Shown: positions 1,383 to 19,718 of the stretch, piece by piece
How the letters are laid out: every line of letters starts with the position of its first letter
Numbering within the stretch: position 1 is the first letter of the stretch
NCBI RefSeq assembly: GCF_024741135.1
Contig: NZ_JANSUY010000002.1
Span: forward strand, 124,001 to 188,000
From: Aquiflexum gelatinilyticum
GTDB taxonomy: Bacteria > Bacteroidota > Bacteroidia > Cytophagales > Cyclobacteriaceae
Direction of reading: 5' to 3'
DNA: 64,000 nt
Translations under genes and position numbers: made by a program
Notes under the pieces: model-generated
Database searches by the model: none
Told to the model about the DNA's origin: nothing
Seen by the model: only the letters and a program-made list of their open reading frames with translations

Positions 1383-1399
1383 TATTCCATCCAACCCCA

Positions 1400-2566
1400 A
1401 TGGAAAGAAATACTTACGATGTGGCGGTAATTGGTCTGGGAGCATTGGGTTCATCGACCCTGTGGCAACTTAGCAAATCAGGAAAAAAAATTCTTGGCAT
1501 CGACCAATTCTCCCCTCCACATACCATGGGTTCTTCCCACGGGGAAACCAGGATTACCAGACTTGCGGTCGGCGAAGGAATGGATTTTGTGCCCATTGTC
1601 AAGAGGTCCCATGAAATCTGGAAAGAACTTGAGTCCCAAACAGGGTCTACCATCATGACGACAACAGGCGGTTTGCTTTTTGACTCTGGAATCCAAAGTT
1701 GGGCGAAGCATGGCTCGGAAGGGTTTTTCGAAAGGACAGTGAAATTCGCACAAGAGGGAAACATACCCTATGAGGTTTTTGATGCCCAAGAACTCGGAAA
1801 CCGATATTCTGAATTCAATTTAGAAGAAAGCGGCAAAGTCTATTACGAGCCGAGTGCAGGATTTCTCCGGCCCGAGCTGGCGATTTCGACCCAACTCCAA
1901 CTTGCGGGACAAAACGGCGCAGTCATCAAAACCCACACAAAAGTATTGAGTATTTCTCCTTTGCCAGGTGGGGGTGTGCGAATCCAAACCAACCAAGGGA
2001 CATTCGAAGCGGCTCAGGCTGTGATCAGCGCCGGTCCTTGGGTCAAGGATTTCCTGCCTTCCTTTGTCAAGACTCAATTCAAAATCTGCAGACAGATCTT
2101 GCATTGGATTCCCAAAAAAGGAAAAGCATTTGAACTGGGAAAAACCCCCATTTTCATGTGGGGCTATGATTCGGGTCCGGAAGATTTTATCTATGGTTTT
2201 CCTTCTTTGGATGGCGCTACGATCAAAGTCGCCTCGGAATCCTTTGTAGAAAGAAACCATCCCGACACGATTTTGAGGGATGTTTCAGAAGCAGAATGTG
2301 AGGATTTTATCCAAAATAAAATCGCCAACCGATTTAACCACATCGAAAAAAAAGTAGTCCAATCCAAAGTCTGCATTTATACAGTCACCTCTGATTCCTA
2401 TTTTGTGGTGGATGAATTGCCTGATTTCCCGGAAGTTTTGGTGGCTTCAGCCTGCAGCGGTCATGGGTTCAAACACTCCGCCGGACTTGGAGAAGGCATT
2501 GCTGATAAAATCCTTGGGAAAAAGCCTAGGTTTGATTTGGAGGTTTTTGGTTTCCGGGATTATTAA
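1400..2566 (+). CDS. FAD-dependent sarcosine oxidase / N-methyltryptophan oxidase-like protein
   Basis: Monomeric flavoprotein amine oxidase of the DAO/MSOX family, predicted to oxidise an N-methyl or secondary amino acid with release of hydrogen peroxide. The N-terminus carries the dinucleotide-binding Gly motif (GLGALGSS, residues 12-19) and an acidic strand end (GIDQF). The segment KVCIYTVTSDSYFVVDE (Cys near residue 325) aligns with the Cys that binds FAD covalently in monomeric sarcosine oxidase, and SGHGFKHSAGLGEGIA matches the C-terminal FAD-binding region. The length of 388 aa is typical. It follows the amidase by 17 nt, which suggests a shared transcript and perhaps a short pathway for an N-alkylated amide or amino acid; that link is inference. 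Confidence 0.85.
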   Translation: MERNTYDVAVIGLGALGSSTLWQLSKSGKKILGIDQFSPPHTMGSSHGETRITRLAVGEGMDFVPIVKRSHEIWKELESQTGSTIMTTTGGLLFDSGIQSWAKHGSEGFFERTVKFAQEGNIPYEVFDAQELGNRYSEFNLEESGKVYYEPSAGFLRPELAISTQLQLAGQNGAVIKTHTKVLSISPLPGGGVRIQTNQGTFEAAQAVISAGPWVKDFLPSFVKTQFKICRQILHWIPKKGKAFELGKTPIFMWGYDSGPEDFIYGFPSLDGATIKVASESFVERNHPDTILRDVSEAECEDFIQNKIANRFNHIEKKVVQSKVCIYTVTSDSYFVVDELPDFPEVLVASACSGHGFKHSAGLGEGIADKILGKKPRFDLEVFGFRDY

Positions 2567-2724
2567 CTTAGGAGCATATATTTGTATGCTAATCTGGTCT
2601 TATCCATCATTTCAATTGTAAACAGATATTAATTGATATTGGATATTGATTGATATTGTTTTGGTCACAAGCCCCTTCATTTGCTTTGAGCGCCATGGTT
2701 TCCCTAGTTTATTTTGATTGTTCT

Positions 2725-3789
2725 TCATCTCGCATTCTTCTTTATCCAGTTATCCAAAACTGACGTAACTGAATACTTGACTCCTTTAAATCGGTCCGGA
2801 GGTGCGGTGTCCAAAGCTTTTCGGACTTCGAGGATCGCAGGATAAAAATCCATACCCTGTCCCGCAAGTTGCCCGTCAACCACACGGAGTAACCTTTCAA
2901 CCCCAAAATGATCAAAAGACCATTCCTGAAGGTTGTTTGAATCGGGTATTGCCGAACGGATATCAGCGGCCATCTGCAGGATACTGAGTCGGACCGGCTC
3001 GGTAAACAAAGCCGGATGGTCCACCATGTTGCCATCCAAAAAATCATAGGCATAATGGTAATTGTACTCAGACACCAGAATCCCGATCAATTCACTTTCC
3101 CAATCAGGCCTTGATTTGATTTTTTCAACTGCCGCCTCCCTGACTTCAGCTTCGTGAAACCTCCCAGTGAGCGGCAAAATCCCAAGGATACTTTGGGTAG
3201 AATCCAAACCTTCAATTTCCCTCATGTAAGTTTCATATTGTTCTTTGTCCTGTGTCTGGATTTGCGAAATTATTTCTTTTTGCTGCTTACTTTGGTAGAC
3301 AAGCCAATCAACCAACAGACCAACCGTAAAGACAAGACTAAACAAAAATCCTATGGAGAAAAAGATCCTTACCGGTGCAAAAATTGGCTCTTTTCCCAAA
3401 AAAAGCACCAGAAACGATGGAATGAAAATCAACAAAGGAAACCAAATCAGGGAATTCATATTGGCCAGCCAAGGGGAAAAACTCACTGCCTCGGTGATAT
3501 TGTCCCATTTTAGTGCGGCTGAAAAAAACACGGTAATTACAAATGCGATGCAAAGTATTACTGCCAAAAAATTTCTCCAAAATGGATCCGGAGTCAGCAT
3601 ACCAAAGACCCCAAGTCTGGACAAGTAGAAAAACAATCCAATGCTCCCTAAGGAAATCCCTAAACCGAAAAACGACAAACCCAATCCATATCCCATGGCA
3701 TTGTCACCTCCCATATTCGGCTTTGGATAATTCAAATACAACAGGCATAGGTAGAATACCAAAGTCAGAACAAAAGAAAATTTACCCAT
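2725..3789 (-). CDS. Polytopic membrane protein with soluble C-terminal domain
   Basis: I do not recognise a family. The 354-aa protein starts with four or five hydrophobic segments (about residues 5-20, 35-60, 70-90, 105-130 and 145-165). A charged Gln/Lys/Glu-rich linker that may be helical follows (about 168-195), then a soluble alpha-helical domain of roughly 160 residues. There is no signal peptidase site. It stands alone on the minus strand, convergent with the oxidase upstream and divergent from pckG. The start ATG at 3789 gives a normal first membrane segment. Existence as a gene is well supported by codon structure and membrane topology; function is unknown. Confidence 0.75.
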   Translation of the reverse strand: MGKFSFVLTLVFYLCLLYLNYPKPNMGGDNAMGYGLGLSFFGLGISLGSIGLFFYLSRLGVFGMLTPDPFWRNFLAVILCIAFVITVFFSAALKWDNITEAVSFSPWLANMNSLIWFPLLIFIPSFLVLFLGKEPIFAPVRIFFSIGFLFSLVFTVGLLVDWLVYQSKQQKEIISQIQTQDKEQYETYMREIEGLDSTQSILGILPLTGRFHEAEVREAAVEKIKSRPDWESELIGILVSEYNYHYAYDFLDGNMVDHPALFTEPVRLSILQMAADIRSAIPDSNNLQEWSFDHFGVERLLRVVDGQLAGQGMDFYPAILEVRKALDTAPPDRFKGVKYSVTSVLDNWIKKNAR

Positions 3790-4142
3790 AGTATTTTTGG
3801 TTTGAAGCTATTTTTTGAGAAGAAATTAAATTACATACAAAACAGGTTCAACATCAAGTGAGTAACGTCAGATGACAGATTTCATAATTACCTGAAAATG
3901 ACATCTATCATGATTTAGTAAAATTTTAATCACCTGACTTTAGGCTATTTTTCGCTCAGAAATGAATAATTTAGGGTTGTGGAAATCAGGTAAAATTTAA
4001 TCAAAAAATATAAAATTCTAAATAAAGAAAGAAATAGGCTTTTTGAATTGAGTGCCTGTATTTTTACAACAAAAAAAACTACGATTAACTTCTAAACCCA
4101 AATTTTAACTTTAAAAAAACAATCTGCTAAAATCAAGAAACT
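3790..4142. promoter_or_regulatory. AT-rich divergent intergenic region upstream of pckG
   Basis: This 353-bp stretch separates two divergent genes and has no credible reading frame. It is strongly A/T-rich and should hold the promoters for pckG and the membrane gene. Near 4050 there is a TATTTTTA sequence that resembles the Bacteroidota -7 box, but I do not find a -33 element at the proper distance. I see no repeats or hairpins of note. Confidence 0.4.
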
Positions 4143-5975
4143 ATGCTGACACAAATCAAAACTGAATTAAAGGACTGGGTGGATTCAATGACGGGCCACT
4201 TTGGTCCGGATCATGTCCATTGGTGTGATGGTTCCGAACAAGAGTATGATATACTTTGTCAAAAAATGGTGGATAAAGGAACCTTCATCAAACTCAATCC
4301 GGAGAAGAGACCGAATAGTTTTGCATGTTTTTCGGACCCAAGCGATGTGGCTAGGGTCGAAGACAAAACTTTTATCTGCAGCAGAAGAAAAGAAGATGCC
4401 GGACCGACCAACAATTGGATGAATCCGACTGAAATGAAGGAAATTTTGAACGGGCTTACTGCCGGAAGCATGAAAGGCAGGACAATGTATGTCATTCCTT
4501 TTTGCATGGGTCCTGTGGGTTCGCACCTTTCCAGATACGGTGTTCAGATTACAGACAGCGAATACGTGGTCGTCAACATGAGAATCATGACCAGAATGGG
4601 AGCACCTATCCTGAAGTACATTGACGAGCATTTTGTCAAATGTATCCATACGCTTGGTGCCCCTTTGGAGCCGGGTGCCAAGGACGTCAAGTGGCCCTGC
4701 AATCCTACTGTCAAATACATATCCCATTTTCCTGAAGAAAGACTCATCATTTCATATGGAAGCGGTTATGGCGGAAATGCCCTTTTGGGTAAGAAATGCT
4801 TTGCACTCAGAATCGCTTCCACCATGGGAAGAGAAGAAGGATGGCTCGCTGAGCACATGCTGATTCTTGGCGTGGAAAGTCCCCAAAAGGAAAAAAGCTA
4901 TATCGCGGCCGCGTTTCCAAGTGCCTGCGGTAAGACCAACTTTGCCATGATGATCCCTCCAAAAGAAATGGAAGGGTGGCGCATCACCACCATCGGCGAT
5001 GACATTGCATGGATTCACAAAGGAGAAAACGGAAGATTACACGCCATCAATCCCGAAGCAGGATACTTTGGCGTGGCTCCCGGCACCAACTACAAGACCA
5101 ACCCCAATGCAATGGAAAGCATCCGGGCAAACACAATTTTTACCAATGTCGCCATCACTGCTGACGGGGATGTATGGTGGGAAGGCATGACCAAAGAGAT
5201 GCCGGAAGGTCTCACTGACTGGCACGGCAAACCTTATGACAAAGCAAGCGGAAAACCTGCAGCACATCCCAATTCAAGATTTACCGCTCCTGCAAACCAA
5301 AATCCTGCAATAGATCCTGAATGGAACAATGCCGAAGGTGTGCCGATCACAGCATTCGTTTTTGGAGGAAGAAGAAGCACAACGGTGCCATTGGTATACC
5401 AAGCTTTCAACTGGAATTTTGGTGTCTATATGGCCGCGACAATGGGTTCAGAGACTACTGCGGCAGCTTTTGGAGAAGTAGGAAAAGTCAGGAGGGATCC
5501 ATTTGCGATGTTGCCATTTATGGGTTACCACATGGGGGATTATTTCAACCATTGGCTTCAGTTTGGCAGGGACTTGCAAAACGCTCCAAGAATCTTTGGT
5601 GTCAACTGGTTTAGAAAAGACGAGGAAGGCAACTTCATCTGGCCAGGATTTGGTGACAACATGCGTGTGCTCAAGTGGATTATCGGCCGATGCAAAGGAA
5701 GGATTTCTGCTGTCGAATGTCCGATTGGCTGGAGACCAAGATATAAGGACATGGACTGGGAAGGCATGCATGATTTCAGCAAAGAGGAATTTGACAAGAT
5801 CATGATGATCGAGCCGGAGCCTTGGAAGACTGAATTGCTTGGCCACAGTGAACTGTTCGAAAAAGCCTATGACAAAGTCCCGAAAGAGTTTTTCTTTATG
5901 AGGGAGTTGTTGCTTTCGGCCTTGTGGAGATCACCGGATAAAGTAGACCTAGCGTCTGAAAGAGGAGACCACTAG
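4143..5975 (+). CDS. pckG: Phosphoenolpyruvate carboxykinase (GTP)
   Basis: Converts oxaloacetate and GTP to phosphoenolpyruvate, CO2 and GDP, the entry step of gluconeogenesis; cytosolic. At 610 aa it has the standard length of the GTP-dependent class. The kinase-1 loop [13 protein letters not shown] (about residues 257-269) contains the hyper-reactive Cys of this class next to the Lys/Thr that bind nucleotide phosphates. The kinase-2 region GDDIAWI follows, with the Mn/GTP segment [25 protein letters not shown] is another conserved block. The gene stands alone, behind a long AT-rich leader and ahead of a strong terminator, so it is probably monocistronic. This is the GTP enzyme and not the ATP-dependent PckA. 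Confidence 0.97.
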
Positions 5976-5998
5976 TTTCTTCCATATCCTAACCAAAG

Positions 5999-6034
5999 AT
6001 CCCTGTAAGTTTAAACTTGCAGGGATTTTTTTTT
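5999..6034 (+). terminator. Rho-independent terminator of pckG
   Basis: A 12-bp stem (ATCCCTGTAAGT with ACTTGCAGGGAT, one T-G wobble) around a TTAA loop, followed by a run of nine T. It lies 23 nt after the pckG stop codon. Confidence 0.9.
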
Positions 6035-6112
6035 CAAGGAAAAATTTCCACCAATTTGTTAAAAGGTTTCTATGCGTGGATGTTAAACCAATTGTCTATT
6101 TTCATAGCCACT

Positions 6113-6200
6113 TTTTTTCTTGACAAAAAAAGTTGCCAAAAAAGTCAAGACGGCGAAATCCTATCCGCGCACAAGGCCAAGGCCGGCCCGGTTCGCCGTC
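6113..6200. repeat. GC-rich nested inverted repeat, REP-like intergenic element
   Basis: The region 5976-6332 contains no credible gene. Inside it are two successive inverted repeats: CTTGAC (6119-6124) with GTCAAG (6144-6149), and GACGGCGAA (6149-6157) with TTCGCCGTC (6192-6200). The second encloses a GC-rich loop holding GGCCAAGGCCGGCCC, in sharp contrast to the AT-rich flanks. This looks like a mobile or interspersed palindromic element and not a terminator, since no T run follows. A 117-codon open frame crosses the area, but it also runs through the pckG terminator and is judged accidental. Confidence 0.45.
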
Positions 6201-6332
6201 ATTCCTCACCGCCTTTACAAATAACATTCAGTTTAAATTTTAAAGATTCGAAAAAAAATTGCTCTAAAAAAGTATTGGACTTAAGGAGCTACATAATCTT
6301 TAAAATAAGGAAAGAACATCCTCCTCCAATCC

Positions 6333-7673
6333 TTACTTCCCCCAAAAATACCTATTCCCATATTGGATAAATGTCGGCCAATTTGGGACGACAGTATGGC
6401 CGCCGCTGTGCTGTCTGAAGGCGATTTCTCCTTTTAGAAGACCTGTTTCCTGTGGAGGAAAAACATTCGTTCCTAGATCATTTTTTCCCAAAAGCCGATA
6501 CACCGGTCCGGCATACACTCCCGCCAAAAACATTCCCTTTGCATCGATCCATTGTCCTTCGACTTCGGGCGAACCCACACTAATGAATACCGGCCTCGGC
6601 GCACAGAGCGCAATGAGTTGGTGGGCATCGACGGGAAGGTCATTAGGGCTGAGCGGTCCTGCATATTTGATAAAATTGGGTGCAAACCAATGGTATTCCG
6701 CAGAGGAAGCAAGGTTTTCTACCTGTTCTCCAAAAACGCGGCGAAGAATTTTAGCACCACCCGCACCTGAGGAACCGATAAAGCCGATTGCAAAACGCTC
6801 ATCATAAGCCATGGCTACTATTGCTGCTTTGCCATACCGGGACAAGCCTTCGATTACGACACGCTTTTCATCTACTTTTTTGTCAGTTTCAAAATAGTCA
6901 ATGGCCCGACTTGCTCCCCAAGCCCAAGCCCGAAGTGCACCCCAATCATCTGCTTTTCTAGGTTCGCCTTTGTTGACCAAGCCGATGATGCCGCCTCTCA
7001 GTCCGGCACCGTGGTCAGCCTGATAGCTAGTCGGTATGAGAATGGCATATCCCCAACCATTATCCAGAATCTGTTCTTGCCAAGGCTTACCGTCCTGAGG
7101 AGGTCGACGGAAATTGGCAGGAAAATTCCAACCGAATTCCAAAACCAAAGGAACCTTCCCATTCCCATTGGCAGGTGTGGTAATGGTCATTTCCAAGGTG
7201 ACCTCTATCGAAGGATACGATGAATTGTCCACAATGCCGAGCAACTCACGGACTTTGACTGGTGTGTTGCCGATGAGGCTGTCCTTTTCAGATTTTACTT
7301 TCCATGTCACCGCAGGCACATTTTCGGGAATCCGACCGTAGATTTCTCTGTCAAAAGCTTCTTTGATTTCAAGCCTACGTGATTCCCACTGTTCCGGAGT
7401 ATTGACTTTGGAACCATTATCGAAGACCAAAGGATCGGGAAGCGAGGTGTAGGCTGTCGCTTTAGATTCGTCAGCATTTGCGGCATTTGGCGCTTCCGGA
7501 TTGCCGGATGGTCCGGGACGGAGGGACTTGATGCCAAGCATGTCCATCATCAACTGATGGTCCTCCCGACTCAGTTTGGCAATGCTGTCCCTTGCCTGTT
7601 GTGACATCTGCGAAAAAGAAGGAACTGAAATCAGGATCAAAAACAGAAAAAGAAGCGGAAGGGAATGTCTCAT
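6333..7673 (-). CDS. Secreted CE15-like (glucuronoyl esterase-type) hydrolase
   Basis: Alpha/beta hydrolase resembling carbohydrate esterase family 15, whose members cleave esters between glucuronic acid and lignin alcohols. The nucleophile motif GLSRYGKAA matches the family's G-C-S-R-x-G-K pattern, with Leu in place of Cys. SSGAGG follows, and a late His (HSGGHTVVPNW) fits the triad. I place the start at the ATG at 7673, giving about 446 aa that begin with a clear signal peptide (MRHSLPLLFLFL, cleavage near SFSQ). The longer frame to 7721 would add a polar stretch ahead of the signal. Residues 20-75 form a linker that includes a Pro/Ala-rich part. The real substrate could be another carboxylic ester. 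It stands alone, facing away from the next gene. Confidence 0.75.
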   Translation of the reverse strand: MRHSLPLLFLFLILISVPSFSQMSQQARDSIAKLSREDHQLMMDMLGIKSLRPGPSGNPEAPNAANADESKATAYTSLPDPLVFDNGSKVNTPEQWESRRLEIKEAFDREIYGRIPENVPAVTWKVKSEKDSLIGNTPVKVRELLGIVDNSSYPSIEVTLEMTITTPANGNGKVPLVLEFGWNFPANFRRPPQDGKPWQEQILDNGWGYAILIPTSYQADHGAGLRGGIIGLVNKGEPRKADDWGALRAWAWGASRAIDYFETDKKVDEKRVVIEGLSRYGKAAIVAMAYDERFAIGFIGSSGAGGAKILRRVFGEQVENLASSAEYHWFAPNFIKYAGPLSPNDLPVDAHQLIALCAPRPVFISVGSPEVEGQWIDAKGMFLAGVYAGPVYRLLGKNDLGTNVFPPQETGLLKGEIAFRQHSGGHTVVPNWPTFIQYGNRYFWGK

Positions 7674-7713
7674 TTTTGGGTATTTATTATAAAATTTAAG
7701 CATGTCATCCTGC

Positions 7714-7910
7714 TTATTCAAGGGATGTTTGAAGAATGGTTGAATATGTTCCTTCGGGGGAGAGATGAATCAAAAATAAGCCTTTGCTGTAGATAGGACC
7801 TTGGTCATCTACCGCAAAGCAATATTCCATGCAATCACTCAGCGCTTCTAACTTGCCAACAGAATGATTGCACTTCCCAAAAAAATGGGTTAGTTTGGGT
7901 AATCAATTTG
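7714..7910 (-). pseudogene. Possible decayed 3' gene fragment upstream of the CE15-like gene
   Basis: The 323-bp gap 7722-8044 holds no complete gene. On the minus strand, about 65 codons are open and read like protein (for example NHSVGKLEALSDCMEY and GLFLIHLSPEGTYSTILQ), ending in TAA at 7714. The only ATG in frame is internal, leaving about 33 codons. It may be the tail of a lost gene, since it lies on the same strand just ahead of the esterase. No family is recognised, and a chance open frame cannot be excluded. Confidence 0.25.
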
Positions 7911-8044
7911 TCTATCAATCTTTTTCATATCCGGTTAAAGCTTTGTTTTCAAAGAAGAGACAACATTGATAGAATTACTCTTTTTCGAATTCTGTTAGGG
8001 CATTCGGAAAGCCTCCTATTAAAACCACAAAATTATTCCAGCTC

Positions 8045-8911
8045 ATGTACAAAAAACTTTTATTCCTCTCGATGGCTTTGATTATGATTGTATCTCAATC
8101 TAAGTCCCAAAGCATTTCTCCCGAAAACAGCCCTCCCCAAACAATTATCAAACAACTAAAAAACGACAAAGGCGCACCCTACGAACTCGCAATAACACTT
8201 CCTTCAGCTTACCAACCTGAGAAAGAATACAAAATCCTCTATTACCTTGATGCTTATTGGCTTCAGGATATGGTCAGAGGATGCTATCGCCTTAAAGCCA
8301 TGTCGAGCGAAATGGAGGAGGTGATTTTGGTGGGAATATTATCAGTAGGAAATGAAAAAGACTGGCACAAACAGCGGAATATGGATTACACGCCTTCCGT
8401 TTATGACTTAAGCTGGTTGAAATTAAAAATTGAGTTTGGCGGTATGTTCTTAGATGAAACCAACACAGGTGGTGCCGAGCATTTTATGCAGTTTCTGAAA
8501 AACCAAATTATCCCGACAATAGAAAAAGAATACAAAGTAGATGCTAAGACTAGGGGTATTTTGGGCCATTCATTCGGAGGCTTATTGGCTTTTTACTCTT
8601 TTGTGAATTACAATGATTTATTTGCCAATTACATCCTGCTTGCTCCAGCTATATGGTGGAATGATTCGGAAATATTTCAGGACAAAGCCTCCCTTCTGAG
8701 TCAAAAAGAAGCGAAGATGTTCATCGCAATGGGCACAGGAGAAATCAATATGTTGAAGATTCCTTTGGGAAAACTTACAGAAGAGTTGAAATCCAAAGAC
8801 AACGAAAAATTAGTAATGACATACAAGCAATATGAAAACGCCACCCACAATTCTGTTCTTCCCCAAGGGATTTATGATGGTATCGAACTTTTGTACAGCA
8901 AATCCAAATGA
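8045..8911 (+). CDS. Secreted alpha/beta hydrolase, esterase D / Fes-like family
   Basis: Serine esterase of the putative esterase group that includes ferric-enterobactin esterases and esterase D. The 288-aa protein begins with a signal peptide (MYKKLLFLSMALIMIVSQ, cleavage around SKSQS). It has a typical beta-strand start (YELAITLPSAYQPEKEYKIL) and the nucleophile elbow GHSFGG near residue 175. LLAPAIWWND follows, as is common in this family, and a late His in ENATHNSVLP completes the triad. The true substrate is unknown; siderophore or acyl-ester hydrolysis is possible. The next gene follows after 65 nt on the same strand. Confidence 0.8.
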   Translation: MYKKLLFLSMALIMIVSQSKSQSISPENSPPQTIIKQLKNDKGAPYELAITLPSAYQPEKEYKILYYLDAYWLQDMVRGCYRLKAMSSEMEEVILVGILSVGNEKDWHKQRNMDYTPSVYDLSWLKLKIEFGGMFLDETNTGGAEHFMQFLKNQIIPTIEKEYKVDAKTRGILGHSFGGLLAFYSFVNYNDLFANYILLAPAIWWNDSEIFQDKASLLSQKEAKMFIAMGTGEINMLKIPLGKLTEELKSKDNEKLVMTYKQYENATHNSVLPQGIYDGIELLYSKSK

Positions 8912-8976
8912 ATCGGAAAGGCACGATCTCCCACTCAAGTATCCGAATCAGACCATGTATTTAAATTTGAATAAAA

Positions 8977-9543
8977 ATGCTTAAAAAGATATTTTTCCCA
9001 TTGATGTCCATCTTCTTGGCTTATAATACCTATAAGCTTTTTATGGTATTCAGTTCCGTGTCCCAAGAAGAGTTTTCATTTTTGTTAAGCTTTATTTTGG
9101 CCATATTGCTCAACCTCTTCGTTACAGGAATCTTCGCATTTACAGGCTTTGCCTATCCAAGCAGCAGGTTGATGCCTGAATCCTACTACGTGGTCAAAAA
9201 TCCAAAAGCGATCACCAAAGCCTATCGTTATTTGGGAGTCAAATACTTCAGGTCATTTTTAATGTTGATCCATTGGGGCAAAGAAAAGAACCGGAAAAAA
9301 TACTTTAACGGCACCAAATCAGGCATCAAAGATTTTGACTTTCAGACCCGGCAATCGGAATTCGGACATTTAGCGGCATTTGTTGTGATTTCTCTTGCAT
9401 GCATTTGGCTCCTGCCGATGGGTCATGTACGGATAGCTTGGCTGACAATGGCATTGAATATTCCTTTCAATCTTTATCCCGTCATTTTGCAGCGGATACA
9501 TCGGGTGCAGATCCAAAGGTTGACAAAGTATATCAGCTACTGA
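8977..9543 (+). CDS. CrtO-like (glycosyl-diaponeurosporenoate acyltransferase family) membrane protein
   Basis: The 188-aa protein has four predicted membrane segments (about residues 5-22, 36-58, 128-146 and 150-170). The C-terminal half (SEFGHLAAFVVISLACIWLL, then NIPFNLYPVILQRIHRVQIQRL) resembles the acyltransferase family named after staphylococcal CrtO, which ends in a hydrophobic hairpin and a Q-R-x-x-R-x-x-R-x-x-x-L motif. The His in the EFGH segment is a plausible catalytic residue. No carotenoid genes are nearby, so an actual role in pigment acylation is unsupported; members in Bacteroidota may acylate another lipid. It follows the esterase on the same strand. Confidence 0.55.
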   Translation: MLKKIFFPLMSIFLAYNTYKLFMVFSSVSQEEFSFLLSFILAILLNLFVTGIFAFTGFAYPSSRLMPESYYVVKNPKAITKAYRYLGVKYFRSFLMLIHWGKEKNRKKYFNGTKSGIKDFDFQTRQSEFGHLAAFVVISLACIWLLPMGHVRIAWLTMALNIPFNLYPVILQRIHRVQIQRLTKYISY

Positions 9544-9721
9544 CCAAGGAATTTTTGAAACTTTTATAAACCGGTTTTTAACACAAATTTAAAAATCAGA
9601 ATCCTGATGAATACTTTCCGTAGGCACTGAATTACTCTTTTTCCCCTGTGGAATGTACTGAGGAAACCAAAAATCTCGATAAAATCCCCCGATTCTAAAA
9701 CCATACAGATGGCATAAGTCT

Positions 9722-9756
9722 ATTTTCCTTTAAAACTTTTTTGGACAAAGGAAAAT
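9722..9756. other. Inverted repeat in the 9544-9902 intergenic region
   Basis: The 359-bp gap before the copper-protein gene has no reading frame. It contains a perfect 10-bp inverted repeat (ATTTTCCTTT with AAAGGAAAAT) separated by 15 nt. No T run follows on either strand. It lies about 150 bp before the start of the Cys-rich gene and might be an operator or a weak hairpin. Nothing else stands out in the gap. Confidence 0.35.
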
Positions 9757-9902
9757 AACCGATTACCTAAACCTTTGCCTTTGTATAAAGGCTAAATGTG
9801 GGATATACATAACATGTTGTTTTATATCCGCAATGCTTACCGCTTCAATGATGGCCACCTTTAGGATTGCAATTATTCTTTTATTACGTAAACCACAATC
9901 AT

Positions 9903-10229
9903 ATGGAAAATTTAAAAAGCTGCATTGATGCTTGTTTGGCATGTCTGGTGACCTGCGAAAAATGCATCACCGACTGTATCAAAGAAAGCAATCTGGATTG
10001 CATTTCAATATGCCGAGACTGTGCTGACATCTGCGCATTGTGTGCAAGGTTTGATGCAAGGGGTTCTGCTTACGGATCTGGTCTCCACGCTTTGTGTGCA
10101 GAAATCTGCAGGGCCTGTGCTGCGGAATGTGAAAAACATGCCGCTCACCATGATAGTTGTAAAGTATGTGCAGAAGCCTGTAAAAAGTGTGCAGAGATCT
10201 GTGAACAAATGGACTCTGTGAAAGCCTGA
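9903..10229 (+). CDS. Cys-rich four-helix-bundle copper-binding protein (Csp/DUF326-like)
   Basis: A 108-aa protein with 20 cysteines, arranged as repeated C-x-x-C and C-x-x-x-C pairs along amphipathic helices (MENLKSCIDACLACLVTC, CEKCITDC, CISICRDCADICALCARF, CAEICRACAAEC, CKVCAEACKKCAEIC). This is the pattern of copper-storage proteins of the Csp/DUF326 type, in which Cys line the core of a four-helix bundle and bind many Cu(I) ions. No signal peptide or Tat motif is seen, so it should be cytosolic (Csp3-like). An upstream in-frame start would add an unlikely Phe/Tyr-rich leader, so I chose the ATG at 9903. A His cluster (KHAAHHD) sits between the last two helices. A Met-rich lipoprotein lies 4.4 kb downstream. 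Confidence 0.88.
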   Translation: MENLKSCIDACLACLVTCEKCITDCIKESNLDCISICRDCADICALCARFDARGSAYGSGLHALCAEICRACAAECEKHAAHHDSCKVCAEACKKCAEICEQMDSVKA

Positions 10230-10359
10230 TTTCAATTAAGCCGGAAAAGGGAGGACTATTGATGCTCTCTTTTTTTTGGTTTGAAAACTTCGAAATAAGG
10301 AGGCCAACCATTCTCCTCAAGACAATTTTTTTGAGCAAATTACACAAAAAATGCCAATC

Positions 10360-10491
10360 CTAGCCTAACAGTTTGAGCTGGGGCGACACATCATCATCAA
10401 AGCTTTCTTTTAGGTCTACTGCCATTTTTAATTTCTCCAATTCAGTTTTTGTAATGGAGGTAGGCTTACGAGACAGATAAGGAAGAGATTC
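10360..10491 (-). pseudogene. Possible remnant of a gene 3' end
   Basis: Between the copper gene and the aldehyde dehydrogenase, the minus strand is open for 43 codons after a TAA and ends in TAG at 10360. The translation looks protein-like (SLPYLSRKPTSITKTELEKL, then KMAVDLKESFDDDVSPQLKL), unlike random AT-rich sequence. It has only an internal ATG. I read it as the orphaned C-terminus of a lost gene; no family is recognised and chance is not ruled out. Confidence 0.3.
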
Positions 10492-10520
10492 TTATCCGAT
10501 TAATTTATAGACAAACCAAC

Positions 10521-11903
10521 ATGACTATTCAAACAACCAATCCTTTTACAAACAAGACAGTAAAGTCATTCAAAGAAATGACAGAGACGGCAGTGGAAGG
10601 AAAAGTAGCCAAAGCCCAAGAAGCTTTTACCCACTGGAAAGAAACCACTTACCAGCACCGGGCGGATTTGTTACACAAAGTTGCCACCCTCATGCGGGTC
10701 AAAAAATCAGAGCTTGCTCAAACCATCACCCTGGAAATGGGAAAAATCTTGTCACAGGCCGAAGGTGAAATCGACCTGAGTGCTGATATTTTTGATTATT
10801 ACGCGAATCACGGGGAGAAATTTCTTGCAGATAAAGTTCTTGATCCCGAATATGGAACAGCCCTTATCCGCAATAGTCCTATCGGGGTTTTGTTAGGTGT
10901 AATGCCCTGGAATTTTCCTTTCTATCAGGTAGCCCGCTTTGTCGCTCCCAATATCATGGTCGGCAATACTATTCTACTCAAGCACGCCTCTATCGTACCA
11001 CAATGTGCCGCTGCCCTGGAAGAACTTTTTGCAGAAGCAGAAGCCCCTGAGGGATTGTACACCAATCTCTTTATCTCAGGCAAACGTGCATCTGCACTTG
11101 TTTCTGACAAAAGAATCAAGGGAGTTTCCCTGACGGGAAGTGAAGAAGCCGGTGCAAGTATCGCCATAGAAGCAGGGAAATATTTGAAAAAGGTGGTCTT
11201 GGAGCTAGGTGGAAACGATGTTTTTATAATCCTGGAGGATGCCGATATGGATAAAACCGTTGAATGGGCAGTTGTCGGCAGGATGAACAACAACGGTCAA
11301 TGTTGTGTCGCCTCCAAGCGTTTCATTGCGGTAGAAGCAATTGCTGACACATTTATCAAAAAATTTAAGGACGCGCTATCAAAAATGAAAGTAGGTGATC
11401 CGATGGATCCCGACACAGAATTGGGTCCTTTAAGCAGTGAAGAAGCGGCAGTGGAATTGGCGGATCAGGTAAAACGCTCCGTTGACCAAGGGGCTAAAGT
11501 TCTGTTGGGAGGAAAACGTGCAGACCGAGAAGGTGCCTTTATGGAACCGACCATACTCACCAACCTGAAACCGGGTATTGCTGCCTACCACGAAGAATTA
11601 TTTGGCCCGGTGGCTTCCTTCTATGTGGTGAAAGACGAAGAGGCTGCCATCGCCCTTGCCAACGATTCTGATTTTGGTTTGGGGGCATCTGTATTTACCC
11701 AAGATATCGAGCGCGGGAAGCGGATCGCAGATCAGATTGATGCCGGAATGGTATTTATCAACCACCCTACCTGGACACAGGCTGACCTTCCTTTTGGCGG
11801 TACAAAACGTTCAGGATTTGGCCGTGAGCTTTCAGAATTGGGAATTCATGAATTTGTCAATAAGAAGCTCATCCGTGTAAGTGAGCTCAATGATCCATTT
11901 TAA
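10521..11903 (+). CDS. NAD(P)-dependent aldehyde dehydrogenase, succinate-semialdehyde dehydrogenase-like
   Basis: Oxidises an aldehyde to its acid with NAD(P)+. The 460-aa length and the short N-terminus (TTNPFTNKTVKSF) fit the compact succinate-semialdehyde dehydrogenase subgroup (Sad/GabD1-like). Conserved blocks are present: the cofactor loop MPWNFPFYQ, the general-base Glu in LELGGND, the nucleophile Cys in NNGQCCVASKRF (near residue 261), and EELFGPVASFY. The C-terminal PFGGTKRSGFGRELSELGI is complete. The next gene, an SDR, starts 51 nt later on the same strand, so this is probably the first gene of a redox cluster. The true substrate could be another semialdehyde or a stress-derived aldehyde. 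Confidence 0.88.
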   Translation: MTIQTTNPFTNKTVKSFKEMTETAVEGKVAKAQEAFTHWKETTYQHRADLLHKVATLMRVKKSELAQTITLEMGKILSQAEGEIDLSADIFDYYANHGEKFLADKVLDPEYGTALIRNSPIGVLLGVMPWNFPFYQVARFVAPNIMVGNTILLKHASIVPQCAAALEELFAEAEAPEGLYTNLFISGKRASALVSDKRIKGVSLTGSEEAGASIAIEAGKYLKKVVLELGGNDVFIILEDADMDKTVEWAVVGRMNNNGQCCVASKRFIAVEAIADTFIKKFKDALSKMKVGDPMDPDTELGPLSSEEAAVELADQVKRSVDQGAKVLLGGKRADREGAFMEPTILTNLKPGIAAYHEELFGPVASFYVVKDEEAAIALANDSDFGLGASVFTQDIERGKRIADQIDAGMVFINHPTWTQADLPFGGTKRSGFGRELSELGIHEFVNKKLIRVSELNDPF

Positions 11904-11954
11904 CATGAGGTTGCATCAAAACATAATTTCATTGAAACTAAAATTAATTATAAA

Positions 11955-12695
11955 ATGGAAATGAAAGGAAAAGTCATCATAATAACAGGAGCCTCTAGTG
12001 GTATAGGCAAAGCAACAGCCTTAAAACTATCTAAAAAGGGTGCTAAAGTAGTACTTTCTTCACGTAGAAAAGATGAACTGGAAGCGCTGAAGAAGTCCAT
12101 CGAAAAGGAAACTGGTGAGGCCTTGGTTGTCATTGCAGACGTTACCAAGAAGCCTGATATGGACAGGTTAGTTGCCAAAACACTCGAAGCTTATGGAACT
12201 GTAGACGCCTTAATTAACAATGCGGGGTTGATGCCTTTATCGTTTGTTGAGAAACTCAAAACCAACGAGTGGGAGAAAATGGTAGACGTAAATATAAAAG
12301 GCGTGTTGAATGGTGTCGCAGCTGTTCTTCCTACCCTTATAAAAAATAAAAGCGGTCATATTATCAATATTTCATCAACCGCAGCTTATAGTTATTTTCC
12401 GGGCGGTGCCGTTTATTGTGCCACAAAGGCCGCAGTGAAAATGTTTTCCGAAGGACTGCGACAGGAGTTAGCTCCAACGTATGGTATACGCGTGACCTCT
12501 ATAGAACCGGGAGTTGTAGCTACAAACCTACTGGATACCATAACTGATGAAGATATTTTAGGTAACCTTTCAGAAATGCAGAAGATGACTGCACTTGAAT
12601 CAGAGGATATAGCGGAAGCGATTTATTATGCCCTCAAGCAACCGCTTCGAGTGAATGTAAATGATGTGCATATCCTACCAACTGAGCAAAAGTAA
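11955..12695 (+). CDS. Short-chain dehydrogenase/reductase (classical SDR)
   Basis: A 246-aa NAD(P)-dependent oxidoreductase. The cofactor motif TGASSGIGKA lies at about residues 11-20, with SSRRKDE after it, which suggests NADPH preference. NNAG and the catalytic Ser-Tyr-Lys (SSTAAYSY, then YCATK) are present. It resembles the YdfG/serine 3-dehydrogenase-like group. The gene is visibly more AT-rich than neighbours such as the SDR at 15104. It lies 51 nt after the aldehyde dehydrogenase and ahead of further reductases, so a shared transcript is likely. Substrate unknown. Confidence 0.85.
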   Translation: MEMKGKVIIITGASSGIGKATALKLSKKGAKVVLSSRRKDELEALKKSIEKETGEALVVIADVTKKPDMDRLVAKTLEAYGTVDALINNAGLMPLSFVEKLKTNEWEKMVDVNIKGVLNGVAAVLPTLIKNKSGHIINISSTAAYSYFPGGAVYCATKAAVKMFSEGLRQELAPTYGIRVTSIEPGVVATNLLDTITDEDILGNLSEMQKMTALESEDIAEAIYYALKQPLRVNVNDVHILPTEQK

Positions 12696-12810
12696 GCTGC
12701 GCCAGCAGTTCTCATAGGTTGGGCACTTTGGTCGACTGGTGCATGGCAGTCATGGAGAATTTCTAAGAAATAAGCAGATAGGTAATCTAAAAATATTAAA
12801 ACCAAAAAAT

Positions 12811-13458
12811 ATGAAAGCCTTACCAATAGTAAGAAAAAATGTATTAGTGGCAGGTGCCAACGGAACTACAGGGAGAATCATCATCGATTTATTAAGAAGA
12901 TCAGAAGCCTATCAACCTATAGCGATGGTCAGAAAACAGGATCAAAAAGATTATTTTGAAAAGCAAGGCGTATCTACGGTACTTGCCGATTTAGAGCAAG
13001 ACCTAAACCACATAATGGAAAATGCGGATAAAGTAATTTTTGCGGCTGGATCAAAAGGTAAAAATATAATAGGTGTGGATCAGGAGGGCGCAAAAAGGCT
13101 AACAGATGCTGCTAAGGAGGCAGGACTTGAGAAGTTTGTCATGTTGAGCACCATGGGAGCAGATAATCCATCTGTGAATGACAAACTTGAAGATTATTTG
13201 AGAGCAAAGCAAAATGCAGATGATCACCTGCGTTCGAGTGGTATGAATTATAGTATTGTAAGACCCGGTCATTTGACAGACGAGGACGGAACAGGCAAAA
13301 TTCAACTCAATGAGAAACTGAAAATTCAGGGGAAGATTTCAAGAGCGGATGTGGCTAAAACATTGGTGGAAACCTTGGAAGATGGCGTTAAACAGAACCA
13401 GGTTTTCGAAATTATAAGTGGAGAAGTTCCAATAGAGAAAGCCGTTCACCAAAATTAA
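12811..13458 (+). CDS. NAD(P)-binding atypical SDR (YwnB/NmrA-like)
   Basis: A 215-aa Rossmann protein of the atypical SDR group, with the motif VLVAGANGTTGRIIIDLLRR near the N-terminus and VMLSTMGADNPS and YSIVRPGHLTDEDGTG further on. Such proteins (YwnB, YtfG-like, NmrA-like) bind NADPH and often act as redox sensors or reductases. I chose the ATG at 12811, because 24 extra codons upstream in the same frame read as non-coding. The next gene starts 6 nt after the stop, which argues for translational coupling. Substrate unknown. Confidence 0.8.
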   Translation: MKALPIVRKNVLVAGANGTTGRIIIDLLRRSEAYQPIAMVRKQDQKDYFEKQGVSTVLADLEQDLNHIMENADKVIFAAGSKGKNIIGVDQEGAKRLTDAAKEAGLEKFVMLSTMGADNPSVNDKLEDYLRAKQNADDHLRSSGMNYSIVRPGHLTDEDGTGKIQLNEKLKIQGKISRADVAKTLVETLEDGVKQNQVFEIISGEVPIEKAVHQN

Positions 13459-13463
13459 AAATC

Positions 13464-14461
13464 ATGAACAAGATTATCCTTTTGAACAAACGTCCTCATG
13501 GAAAACCAACGCTTCATGATTTTAAGATCAGTAGTGAAGAAATGCCGGCACCAAAAGATAGTGAGGTGCTATTAAAAACAGTGTATGTCTCGGTCGATCC
13601 CTATTTGCGAGGCAGAATGAATGACGCGAAATCTTATATCCCCCTGCATTTGAATTAAATAAACCCATTCAATCGGGAATTATCGCCGAGGTAATTGAAA
13701 GTAAACATGCCGATTTCAAAAAGGGTGATTTTGTTTCGAATAATTTGGATTGGAAGGAATATCAGATTTCTGATGGTAAAGACTTAGTCAAGGTGAATAA
13801 AACTGACGCCAAATTATCAAGCTATTTGGGAATATTAGGAATGACAGGGCTTACGGCTTATTTAGGCTTGATGGAAATAGGGTTACCTAAGAAAGGCGAA
13901 ACTCTTGTCGTTTCCGGAGCAGGAGGGGCAGTTGGGACAGTAGTGGGTCAAATTGGTAAATTGCACGGTTGCCGGGTAGTTGGCATTACCGGTTCGGATG
14001 AAAAAGTATCTCTACTTACATCAAAGTTTAATTTCGATCATGCCATCAATTATAAAACAGCAAAAAATTTAAAAGAGGCTATCAAAATTGCCTGCCCGAA
14101 TGGGGTAGATATCTACTTTGATAATGTCGGTGGAGAGATTTCCGACGCTGTTTTAGCAAACATAAATAAGTACGCCCGACTGCCTGTTTGTGGTGCTATA
14201 TCGCTCTACAATGAAACTGAGATTCAGTTGGGCCCCCGATTGCAACCCATCATCCTCACCAAAAGTGCTACCATGAGAGGATTTATTATTGGGGATTTAA
14301 AGGAAAAATTTCCGGCTGCCATCAAACAATTATCAGCGTGGCTAAAAGACGACAAAATCACGTTCAGCGAAACCCTTGTGAAAGGCTTCGATAATATTCC
14401 CCAGGCATTTATTGATTTGTTTGATGGAAAAAACAAAGGAAAAATGATTGTGGAAATATGA
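13464..14461 (+). pseudogene. Medium-chain (CurA/LTB4-reductase-like) NADP oxidoreductase, frameshifted
   Basis: Zinc-independent medium-chain reductase of the curcumin/prostaglandin-reductase group. The first part (MNKIILLNKRPHGKPTLHDF, VSVDPYLRGRM) ends at a stop at 13656. The second part (SGIIAEVIESKHADF, the cofactor loop GAGGAVGTVVGQIGK, DVYF-like IYFDNVGGEI, MRGFIIGD) continues in another frame. A single added C in the run CCCCC at 13640-13644 restores one continuous protein of about 332 aa, the normal family length. So it is either a recent pseudogene, a phase-variable homopolymer, or a sequencing error in a short run. The rest of both halves is intact. The ATGA at its end overlaps the next small frame. 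Confidence 0.8.
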
Positions 14462-15103: not shown

Positions 15104-15865
15104 ATGAAAAAATTAGAGAACAAGGTTGCGATCATTACCGGTGGTGCAGGAAGTATCGGCATGACCACAGCCAAGCTATTTTTGGAAGAAGGCGCAAAGG
15201 TCCTGTTGGTAGATTTGGAGGAAGAGCCTCTCAAAAAAGCGGTGAAAGAATTGGGAGGAAAAGCCGTGCAGTATTGTGTGGCGGATGTGACTAAATCTAC
15301 GGATGTCCAAAGGTACGTGGACACAGCAGTAAAAGCCTTTGGGAAAATCGATGTGTTTTTTAACAATGCAGGAATTGAGGGAACGGTAAAACCGATCATT
15401 GACTACCCGGAAGAAATGTTTGACAAAGTCATTGCCGTCAATGTGCGGGGTGTTTGGTTGGGAAATAAATACGTCTTGCCCCACATGAATGACGGCGGCA
15501 GTATCATCATCACCTCCTCGGTGGCAGGCTTGCTCGGCAGTCCCAATGTCAGTGCTTATATCATCAGCAAACATGCCGGCGTAGGCATTATGCGGGCGAC
15601 AGCGGTGGAAGCTGCTCCAAGAAAAATCCGCGTCAACAGTGTGCATCCTTCCCCGGTCGACAACCGCATGATGCGCTCGCTCGAAGAAGGATTTTCTCCG
15701 GGTCAGGGCGATGCGGTTAAGAAGCAACTCGAGCTGACCATCCCCCTTGGCCGGTATGCCAAACCCATCGAGATTGCAAAACTCGTCTTGTTTTTGGCAA
15801 GCGACGACAGTCAGTTTATCACAGGTACGACTCAGGTAATTGATGGCGGTATCAATGTCCAGTAG
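15104..15865 (+). CDS. Short-chain dehydrogenase/reductase (FabG-like SDR)
   Basis: A 253-aa classical SDR. It has the cofactor loop TGGAGSIGMTTA (residues 11-22), LVDLEEE with an acidic residue favouring NAD(H), and NNAGIEG. The catalytic Ser-Tyr-Lys is seen in SSVAGLLGS and YIISKHA, and the C-terminal TGTTQVIDGG is complete. It resembles cyclopentanol/sex-steroid-type dehydrogenases. Base use is more GC-rich than in the SDR at 11955, so the two were probably acquired separately. It ends 52 nt before a striking 21-bp tandem array. Substrate unknown. Confidence 0.85.
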   Translation: MKKLENKVAIITGGAGSIGMTTAKLFLEEGAKVLLVDLEEEPLKKAVKELGGKAVQYCVADVTKSTDVQRYVDTAVKAFGKIDVFFNNAGIEGTVKPIIDYPEEMFDKVIAVNVRGVWLGNKYVLPHMNDGGSIIITSSVAGLLGSPNVSAYIISKHAGVGIMRATAVEAAPRKIRVNSVHPSPVDNRMMRSLEEGFSPGQGDAVKKQLELTIPLGRYAKPIEIAKLVLFLASDDSQFITGTTQVIDGGINVQ

Positions 15866-15916: not shown

Positions 15917-16378
15917 CCTGAGTACTAAGGGAAATATGTTGTCTACCTTCCGAAGTATGACGCGGACCTTCGGAAGGTACTCGAGTACTCTCCGAAGCTA
16001 GTCAGGAATTCAAATTTACTACATTTTGAATCTTTTTTACTTCACAGGTATTTAATTTTAATTCATAGAAATTCTTTTTCATTACTCGTCTATTGATTTT
16101 GAATACAGATCGATTCTTTTTTAAAACCTGCGAACTCAATTTTAATTCAGCTGAACTCTTTTTTATTTCATGAGTATTCAATTTCAAAACAGCGGAAGTC
16201 TTTTTGATTCAAAATGTTTTCTTTTAGAATACCTGAGTATTCTAAATCATCAGACAGGTATTCTTATTTGTTAGCTGTGTATTCTTTGGAAATACATGAG
16301 TACTCTCGGAAATATGACGAGTACCTTCTGAGGGTACTGAAGTATGCTTTTTAGATACTGCGGTATGTAATGAAGTCT
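15917..16378. repeat. 22-unit degenerate tandem array, exact 21-bp period
   Basis: The 718-bp gap 15866-16583 is mostly this array. Cutting the sequence every 21 bp from 15917 gives 22 units without one insertion or deletion. The consensus begins CATGAGTATTC and continues with a T-rich half, TTTTTGAATA. The core GAGTAYTC is (near) palindromic, and exactly so (GAGTACTC) in units 4 and 19. Units 2-4 and 19-20 are GC-richer (CTTCCGAAG type); the central units carry T tracts. Two weaker units may precede it (15875, 15896). The last 205 bp before the next gene are plain AT-rich sequence. On the minus strand one frame reads as heptads such as V-F-P-K-N-T-Q and K-K-S-S-A-E-L, but it is broken by four stops, so I treat the array as non-coding. 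Confidence 0.9.
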
Positions 16379-16583: not shown

Positions 16584-17444
16584 ATGAAATTCGGTAAGAC
16601 AATAAAAATATTCCTTATTGACGGCGATCCAAATGGAAGAATGAGTTGTGAACTTTCTAATTGGTCGGGTAAAGCCTACAAAATTCCAAGAATAAAAGTG
16701 AAAGATTGTTCAGACCGTGACGACTTGACAAGTACAGGGGTTTATCTTCTTTTTGGAAAGGATGATGAAGGAAAAGATCAAGTTTACATTGGAGAAGCAG
16801 AATCAATTTTAAAAAGACTAAACCAACAATTGACTTCTAAGGATTTTTGGAATGAAACGATAGTTTTTATAAGTAAAGACGAAAATCTTAACAAAGCCCA
16901 TATAAAATATTTAGAAAACAGACTGCACGAAATTGCCAAATCTGCAAATCGCTATAAGGTTGATAACTCAATTATCCCTACTCAATCTTCAATTTCTGAA
17001 TCCGACAGAGCAGAGATGGAAGAATTTATAGAGTATATAAAAATGCTTGTAAATACATTAGGGCATAAAGTATTTGACGAGAAACGAGAGTTTAAACCAA
17101 AACAAAAACAAGAAACATTTTTTATCAAAGCAGCCAGAGGAGCCGATGGACAAGGGGAACCTACTTCAGATGGGTTTGTTGTTTTCAAAAACTCAAAAGC
17201 AGCAGCTTCAATTGTTAATTCCATGACCTCTAACTATATCGCCTTTCGACAAAAACTTATTTCACAAGGTATTTTAGTGGACAAAGGAGAATATTTTGAA
17301 TTTTCTGACGATTACATTTTCAGTAGTCCTTCAACTGCAGCAGTAATGGTAATGGGAAGAAATGCAAACGGACTTACTGAATGGAAAAACAAAAACGGCA
17401 AAACTCTTAAAGATTTTGAAACAAATGACAAAATCACCCTGTAG
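16584..17444 (+). CDS. GIY-YIG nuclease with C-terminal DUF4357-like domain
   Basis: A 286-aa protein. After a short N-terminal strand domain, residues 50-80 hold the GIY-YIG signature (TGVYLLFGKDD, then QVYIGEAESILKRL), and the central part reads HIKYLENRLHEIAKSANRYK with a conserved Glu/Asn pair. The C-terminus (ISQGILVDKGEYFEFSDDYI, SSPSTAAVMVMGRNANGLTE) matches the DUF4357 domain often joined to restriction-like or GIY-YIG proteins. Such proteins are presumed DNA nucleases and are often found among defence or mobile genes. Base composition is clearly more AT-rich than that of uvrC next door, which suggests transfer. It follows the 21-bp array and is convergent with uvrC. The biological role is unknown. 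Confidence 0.82.
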   Translation: MKFGKTIKIFLIDGDPNGRMSCELSNWSGKAYKIPRIKVKDCSDRDDLTSTGVYLLFGKDDEGKDQVYIGEAESILKRLNQQLTSKDFWNETIVFISKDENLNKAHIKYLENRLHEIAKSANRYKVDNSIIPTQSSISESDRAEMEEFIEYIKMLVNTLGHKVFDEKREFKPKQKQETFFIKAARGADGQGEPTSDGFVVFKNSKAAASIVNSMTSNYIAFRQKLISQGILVDKGEYFEFSDDYIFSSPSTAAVMVMGRNANGLTEWKNKNGKTLKDFETNDKITL

Positions 17445-19658: not shown

Positions 19659-19714
19659 TATGGACTGTCGACTGTGGACTGTCGACTTTCAGCTATGGAC
19701 TGTGGTCTGTCGAC
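19659..19714. repeat. Right copy of GGACTGTCGAC-type direct repeats
   Basis: Contains TATGGACTGTCGAC, TGTGGACTGTCGAC, TATGGACTGTGG and TCTGTCGAC in close succession, a degenerate tandem of about 14 bp per unit, ending five bases before the PBP1A stop codon. It is inverted relative to the copy at 19397. Confidence 0.65.
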
Positions 19715-19718
19715 TTTT

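Follow-up and report, generated by a model that had tools for sequence, protein, structure and literature searches.

Array A combines strong divergence with an exact 21-bp period

How can the units of a tandem array differ at more than half of their positions and still remain exactly in phase? This question is raised by array A, which lies in the analyzed window, a 64,000-nucleotide stretch of the Aquiflexum gelatinilyticum genome. The array and its surroundings comprise the following features.

15104..15865, plus strand: short-chain dehydrogenase gene (PF13561), the upstream neighbor, ending 52 bp before array A
15917..16378, plus strand: array A, consensus about tgnGTATTCTtTTTaAtTACA, with two dyad centers per unit
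15944..15979, no strand assigned: 12-bp inverted repeat within GC-rich units; core TTC-CG-GAA, placed 5′ on the T strand
16002..16187, minus strand: 61-aa heptad-like frame, not a gene, stopped before and after
16584..17444, plus strand: DUF4357 gene, the downstream neighbor, with PDC-S14 as best PADLOC match

Array A (15,917–16,378, plus strand) is composed of 22 units of 21 bp with zero insertions or deletions, and its units differ pairwise by 55% on average (range 19–90%). Its identities at lags of 21, 42, 63 and 84 bp are 0.517, 0.526, 0.499 and 0.455, as compared to a maximum of 0.377 at lags 10–99 in 1000 dinucleotide shuffles, and the best lag-21 stretch in the rest of the window reaches 0.361. 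The lag identities and the mean unit difference confirm the initial annotation, which had recognized 22 in-phase units differing at more than half of their positions. Tandem Repeats Finder left the array unlisted even at a score of 30. The 12-bp inverted repeat that had been noticed in the GC-rich units was located, with its arms at 15,944–15,955 and 15,968–15,979.

Both neighboring genes lie outside the element, since the short-chain dehydrogenase gene is missing at the locus of the congener Aquiflexum sp. TKW24L (G003), and other genes take the place of the DUF4357 gene in this congener and in Cognataquiflexum nitidum (G002). The gene behind array A reads like a putative type I methylase in the congener (L046 3992-6205) and like a putative large helicase-like protein in C. 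nitidum (L047 67-4038). Elsewhere in the window, an oxidoreductase-like gene occupies two frames at 13464–14461 (64 + 238 aa) and is a single 331-aa ORF in the congener, and about eight copies of a GACTGTC-like 7-bp tandem repeat, akin to heptanucleotide repeats and separate from the 21-bp family, lie at 19661–19715.

Homologous arrays exchange letters and keep their length

A profile model of the array A dialect (R1) detected two arrays in the A. gelatinilyticum genome, array A and a second one, array B (G000:C2 ~163,121–163,490), together with both orthologs in the congener. Between the two species, array A has 72 substitutions and 0 indels over 462 bp, and array B has 51 substitutions and 0 indels over 315 bp, with a further difference resembling one unit near one end. 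In the flanks of array A, indels number 1 over 52 bp and 2 over 82 bp, and the 95-bp gene-side flank of array B carries none. Beside array B, about 11.7 kb (L055 ~1372–13115), with an 886-aa ORF that looks like a putative type III restriction subunit, is replaced by about 390 bp in the congener.

The 14 best-scoring homologous array pairs, which are not mutually independent, are gapped by 21 or 42 bp or have no gap; one of them is gapped 5+8+8, with a sum of 21. Larger BLAST gap totals were obtained for the ortholog pairs L082/L091, L083/L087 and L084/L092. In a phase test of 47 arrays selected by periodicity (739 units), 13 of 645 three-unit stretches were off phase, mostly at array ends, and 40 arrays were entirely in phase; L100 has a true 1-bp break. 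These comparisons show that the spacing of the 21-bp arrays is under constraint, in agreement with the earlier proposal that the spacing itself is selected.

Changes in copy number, which had been named as evidence against such a constraint, do occur (15 versus 16–18 units, and 22 versus about 6 in C. nitidum), but as whole units, save for one slip in the gene-less C. nitidum. In this species, about 6 units of array A are left, with the slip, and the L091 array is short. The idea that arrays lose step once the gene is lost was rejected: it came from C. nitidum alone and is contradicted by Aquiflexum lacus (G005), which lacks the gene and has arrays in phase.

Array A is a member of a dispersed family, often with a palindromic cap

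The initial annotation had suspected a widespread element family. This is borne out by 12 array places in the A. gelatinilyticum genome and by the repeats found in Bacteroidota and Spirochaetota. The 12 places are arrays A and B, the array at C54:50.1k, which adjoins a paralog of the gene described below, and nine found with model R2, among them the weak array at C55:155.8k.

Several arrays of the family carry a GC-rich palindromic cap. The pattern of such a palindrome, taken from beside an array of Cognataquiflexum aquatile (G004), matched 9 of 59 relatives. Seventeen stretches were taken, 16 at cap-pattern matches (G000–G005, which include Cognataquiflexum rubidum as G001, and G011, Marinoscillum furvescens) and one at an R1 match in G071, and all 17 contained a 21-bp array. 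Across 84,980 species genomes, the cap pattern yielded 53 stretches. Within the range 12–63, the strongest period was 21, 42 or 63 in 48 of these, three of them scoring below 0.50; two Aquimarina stretches had a top period of 44 or 22. The cap, itself partly in phase, raises these periodicity scores. By title, the cap stretches include Aquiflexum, Cognataquiflexum, Algoriphagus, Cyclobacterium, Hymenobacter, Maribellus, Sunxiuqinia, Carboxylicivirga and Aquimarina, and two Spirochaetaceae MAGs also contributed. The periodicity scan detected no array in the Arthrobacter and Proteobacteria cap stretches.

The GC-rich units of array A at 15944..15979 probably represent a degenerate form of this cap, since both their position and their sequence (TTC-CG-GAA core, 5′ end, T strand) agree with it. 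A constant cap position, 5′ on the T strand, did not hold up in the wider set, where 25 of 34 arrays agree when scored by a crude rule. By our reading, 20 loci could be ordered, and in 14 of them the cap stands at the gene-distal end.

For the following analyses, 50 arrays were listed from 75 rows; those below about 180 bp or weak, mostly not array-like, were dropped, as were L047, L050 and L093. Unit sequence differs greatly among the loci. The gaps holding 45 of the 50 arrays (five have uncalled neighbors) are 17 convergent, 25 tandem and 3 divergent.

Array A does not encode a protein

Stop codons number 4–18 per frame in all six frames of array A and 5–17 in the congener homolog. The nonsynonymous ratios against the congener are 0.88–1.11 for array A and 0.91–1.08 for array B over six frames, none of which is enriched in silent changes. 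Since all six frames are stopped and silent changes are not in excess, array A is non-coding, as the initial annotation had held, and a protein-coding heptad repeat was set aside for it on the basis of at least 4 stops in each frame and the ratios above. The annotation had read minus-strand heptads broken by four stops, and the best of the six frames indeed has 4. The 61-aa frame at 16002..16187 (minus strand) has its stops elsewhere in the congener and likewise shows no excess of silent changes.

It is very improbable that the 21-bp unit encodes seven-residue repeats of a small protein, at present or in the recent past. Of 50 arrays, 30 have one or more frames that are open throughout, compared with 14.3 predicted from column-shuffled units, an expectation that is probably too low because the shuffle breaks within-unit correlations, and some Maribellus pairs have ratios of 0.6–0.8 in two frames. 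However, more than one frame is open in 18 arrays, and openness therefore follows composition; the stops and ratios of arrays A and B also argue against coding.

The arrays are linked to the 3′ side of one protein gene

A gene of a protein family of about 157 residues is present in 16 of the 53 cap stretches and at the B locus. Among 50 loci collected by the protein only (one per genome, a few excepted), an array lies 3′ of the gene in 31 (25 at 21/42/63 bp and 6 at 43/44 bp), the 5′ side is periodic in 2 (one at 21 and one at 22 bp), and 19 have no array at the threshold. In the Bacteroidota draw (L155–L183), 14 of 29 loci have periods of 21/42/63 and 6 have 43/44; 7 of 11 have periods of 21/42/63 in the Spirochaetota draw (L214–L225 without L216), as do 4 of 10 in relatives outside the genus (L229–L237 and L241). 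In the wider set of 69 loci, which includes genomes picked for the cap, the array is 3′ in 52 and 5′ in 2. The first periodic stretch begins a median of 83.5 bp past the end of the coding sequence (62 loci), and a terminator-like site occurs in the first 220 nt behind the gene in 30 of the 69 loci and before the gene in 5. The arrays are thus linked to the 3′ side of this gene.

Six gene-linked arrays (L161, L167, L170, L173, L176 and L178) have a period of 43 or 44 bp, uniform within each array. Some copies of the gene have 7/14-bp repeats nearby (L188 5′ flank, L205 5′ flank and L206), and the Spirochaetota array in the 3′ flank of the L223 gene is flanked by two long, GC-rich inverted repeats with similar sequences. 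In G044, from another family of the order, L050 2201-2435 has a 42-bp unit of another dialect, and the gene copy of this genome has a stop.

Array and gene also tend to occur in the same genomes. The gene was found in 16 of 19 chosen cap genomes (G805, G809 and G811 lack it), elsewhere in the genome in 6 of 9 with a gene-less cap stretch, and in five of seven relatives with confirmed arrays, the other two being C. nitidum and A. lacus. It occurs in 31 of 395 Bacteroidota genomes and in 8 of 198 genomes of the phylum of the Spirochaetaceae MAG (center included). A. gelatinilyticum has five paralogs, four of which have an array behind their 3′ end.

One alternative is a neutral satellite, in which slippage and conversion keep functionless arrays in step and the gene merely stands where arrays arise. 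Whole-unit gains and losses, the gene-less arrays of C. nitidum and A. lacus and the large differences in unit sequence among loci are consistent with it. Nevertheless, we consider it unlikely: slippage accounts neither for the absence of small indels in the diverged units of arrays A and B nor for the recurrent 3′ association with a single gene family across two phyla.

The linked protein is helical and acidic

The linked protein family is without a name or known fold and spans two phyla, Bacteroidota and Spirochaetota. Searches with 1 to 5 members each, and one Pfam search with all 23, gave no above-cutoff matches in Pfam, NCBIfam, PADLOC, PHROGs or PDB sequences. A Nop domain was absent among the Pfam matches of the 23 members at E≤1, and three members had no PADLOC defence match at E≤1. 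The AlphaFold2 model is helical, with a 55-residue helix (mean pLDDT 89.9, pTM 0.70), and has no fold match at E≤0.001 in the PDB or among viral models; the PDB structure search returned no DNA-binding fold. The proteins are acidic, with pI values of 4.3–7.8 and 21 of 23 below 6.3. At the sensitivity used, the gene was absent from plasmids (searched with one member protein), phages and viral contigs, and these searches gave no support for a phage- or plasmid-borne mobile element.

Each unit contains two dyads

In array A, complementarity is 0.52 and 0.47 at two centers half a unit apart, as compared to an all-center median of 0.28. The core described earlier as near-palindromic is therefore dyad-like. 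The dyads are imperfect. Two dyad centers per unit were found in all 50 arrays, at 0.32–0.63 (the first center being chosen as the maximum) versus medians of 0.21–0.28. When the phase was set without selection, within-unit pairing covariation was 0.015 ± 0.0075 and 0.013 ± 0.0085, a marginal effect that was positive in 27 and 22 of 41 arrays. Strong hairpin covariation was discarded: the first estimate was biased by the choice of the best phase and shrank to marginal once the cap fixed the dyad phase. Since pairing beyond the consensus is marginal, the symmetry resides in the sites and not in matched arms.

These data bear on a rather unlikely alternative, in which a transcript of the array, as hairpins or cut into pieces, would cooperate with the linked protein in the manner of TIGR-Tas or of type III toxin-antitoxin systems. 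Such an RNA would suit the combination of a single small helical protein gene with a tandem dyad array and the terminator-like site often ahead of the array (30 of 69 3′ flanks versus 5 of 69 5′ flanks); TIGR arrays likewise occur before or behind a single gene and can contain palindromes (PMC12045711). However, covariation is marginal once the phase is fixed, and hairpin loops would tolerate indels. A guide-like or spacer block (at least 8 adjacent uninformative columns) was present in none of 47 arrays, and a guide array was set aside. A known RNA family was set aside, as Rfam gave no match at the gathering score in 20 loci; on the window region it returned solely a chance-level mir-581 match (E 0.61).

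It had also been proposed that the T tracts, recurring at two-turn intervals, curve the DNA, and such bending could be the selected property. Array A has 0.68 A/T tracts of at least 4 per unit, as this proposal would expect. In 10 of 50 arrays, the GC-rich L099 and L162 arrays among them, the tract count falls below 0.3 per unit while the period is kept. A-tract curvature was therefore set aside as a general principle, and as an explanation of the family it is improbable. Taken together, the earlier interpretation holds for the spacing constraint, the non-coding nature, the dyad-like core and the widespread family, but not for curvature as a general principle; array B, the cap and the linked gene were absent from it.

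Array A may be an orphan protein-binding site

We tentatively propose that array A is a spacing-locked nucleoprotein site, an orphan copy of the dialect that stands beside one paralog, with a probability of about 0.4 for this reading as a whole. In its home form, the element would consist of a gene for a helical protein of about 157 residues, often a terminator, and then the array, often with a GC-rich palindromic cap. The 21-bp unit presents two dyads, i.e. one per 10.5 bp, or one helical turn. The constraint would act on the DNA, because dyads one turn apart share a face of the helix, along which a bound protein can stack. A protein reading the dyads on one helix face is the best-supported part of what we infer; this reader may be the product of the linked gene or one of its partners.

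The choice of paralog follows from the array dialects, which were correlated among nine arrays of the A. gelatinilyticum genome. Orphan array A correlates with gene-linked array B at r 0.84 and with the other seven at ≤0.48. Similarly, L081 matches gene-linked L084 at 0.96, and L080a and L080b match L083 at 0.83 and 0.79. Array A would thus be a distant site for the B-locus paralog, because the array adjacent to that gene has the same dialect. L085 of C. rubidum has, by eye, a B-like dialect, yet its neighbor is another gene, and BLAST found no flank shared by L085 and B. A shared dialect may be explained by copying or common descent as well as by recognition. The patch could serve as an anchoring or boundary site in the space behind genes.

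Several observations stand against a nucleoprotein site. The linked protein is acidic, and its model matches no DNA-binding fold; arrays exist without the gene in C. nitidum and A. lacus, and 19 of 50 gene loci have no array. The 43/44-bp lineages fit 10.5 bp per dyad less exactly, and orphan L082 matches no gene-linked dialect well (≤0.56). An addressing system, in which each paralog would assemble along its own dialect and thereby tie distant loci such as A and the B locus together, the spacing being preserved by the need for all dyads to point to the same helix side, is quite unlikely.

Comparison with known systems

TIGR-Tas has a single small gene preceded or followed by a tandem array, and its repeats are conserved inside each locus but vary from one locus to another (PMC12045711); the present element resembles it in both respects. 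TIGR arrays, which are processed to 36-nt RNA, have units of 36 nt with 9-nt spacers, in contrast to the 21/42-bp units here. The present arrays further differ in the lack of a variable spacer block (0 of 47), and their linked gene in the lack of Nop matches (E≤1, 23 members), of PDB fold matches (E≤0.001), and of matches in viral contigs, plasmids and phages.

The REP/BIME palindromes, with GTAG and CGTC super-families (PMC3733652) and a RAYT transposase, are likewise dispersed intergenic palindromic elements with few copies in divergent gaps (3 here, with 12 places in the A. gelatinilyticum genome). The present arrays differ in being long and in phase (10–36 units) and in their linkage to a non-transposase gene, whose protein has no Pfam family above the cutoff.

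In parC/ParR and iteron/Rep systems, too, a small protein gene adjoins tandem sites spaced close to the helical repeat. The present arrays share the tandem sites, the helical spacing and the small gene, and may share binding by the product of that gene; unlike those systems, which are carried on plasmids with a motor or Rep gene, they are chromosomal, with several paralogs, orphan arrays, a 3′ array position and an acidic helical protein, and a plasmid search with one member protein gave zero matches. Type III toxin-antitoxin systems have tandem repeats beside the gene for a protein of about 170 residues, with the repeats 5′ of the toxin gene. They are alike in placing tandem repeats next to a small protein gene, whereas the array here is 3′, the repeats are shorter, and Rfam and PADLOC gave zero matches. 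The STRR/LTRR repeats of cyanobacteria are degenerate, tandem and intergenic as well, but with 7-bp or 37-bp units instead of 21 bp, and we know of no gene linked to them, unlike here. A search of the open full-text literature, a scope outside which most subscription journals fall, found no description of such an array/gene element.

The letters of these arrays drift freely while their length is locked, and a single nameless protein family is linked to them, so that what reads the arrays is directly testable, in array-bearing species that are culturable Cyclobacteriaceae. If RNA is involved, the element would constitute a new protein-RNA pair; if the linked protein reads the arrays, it would represent a new kind of bacterial sequence-addressed nucleoprotein.
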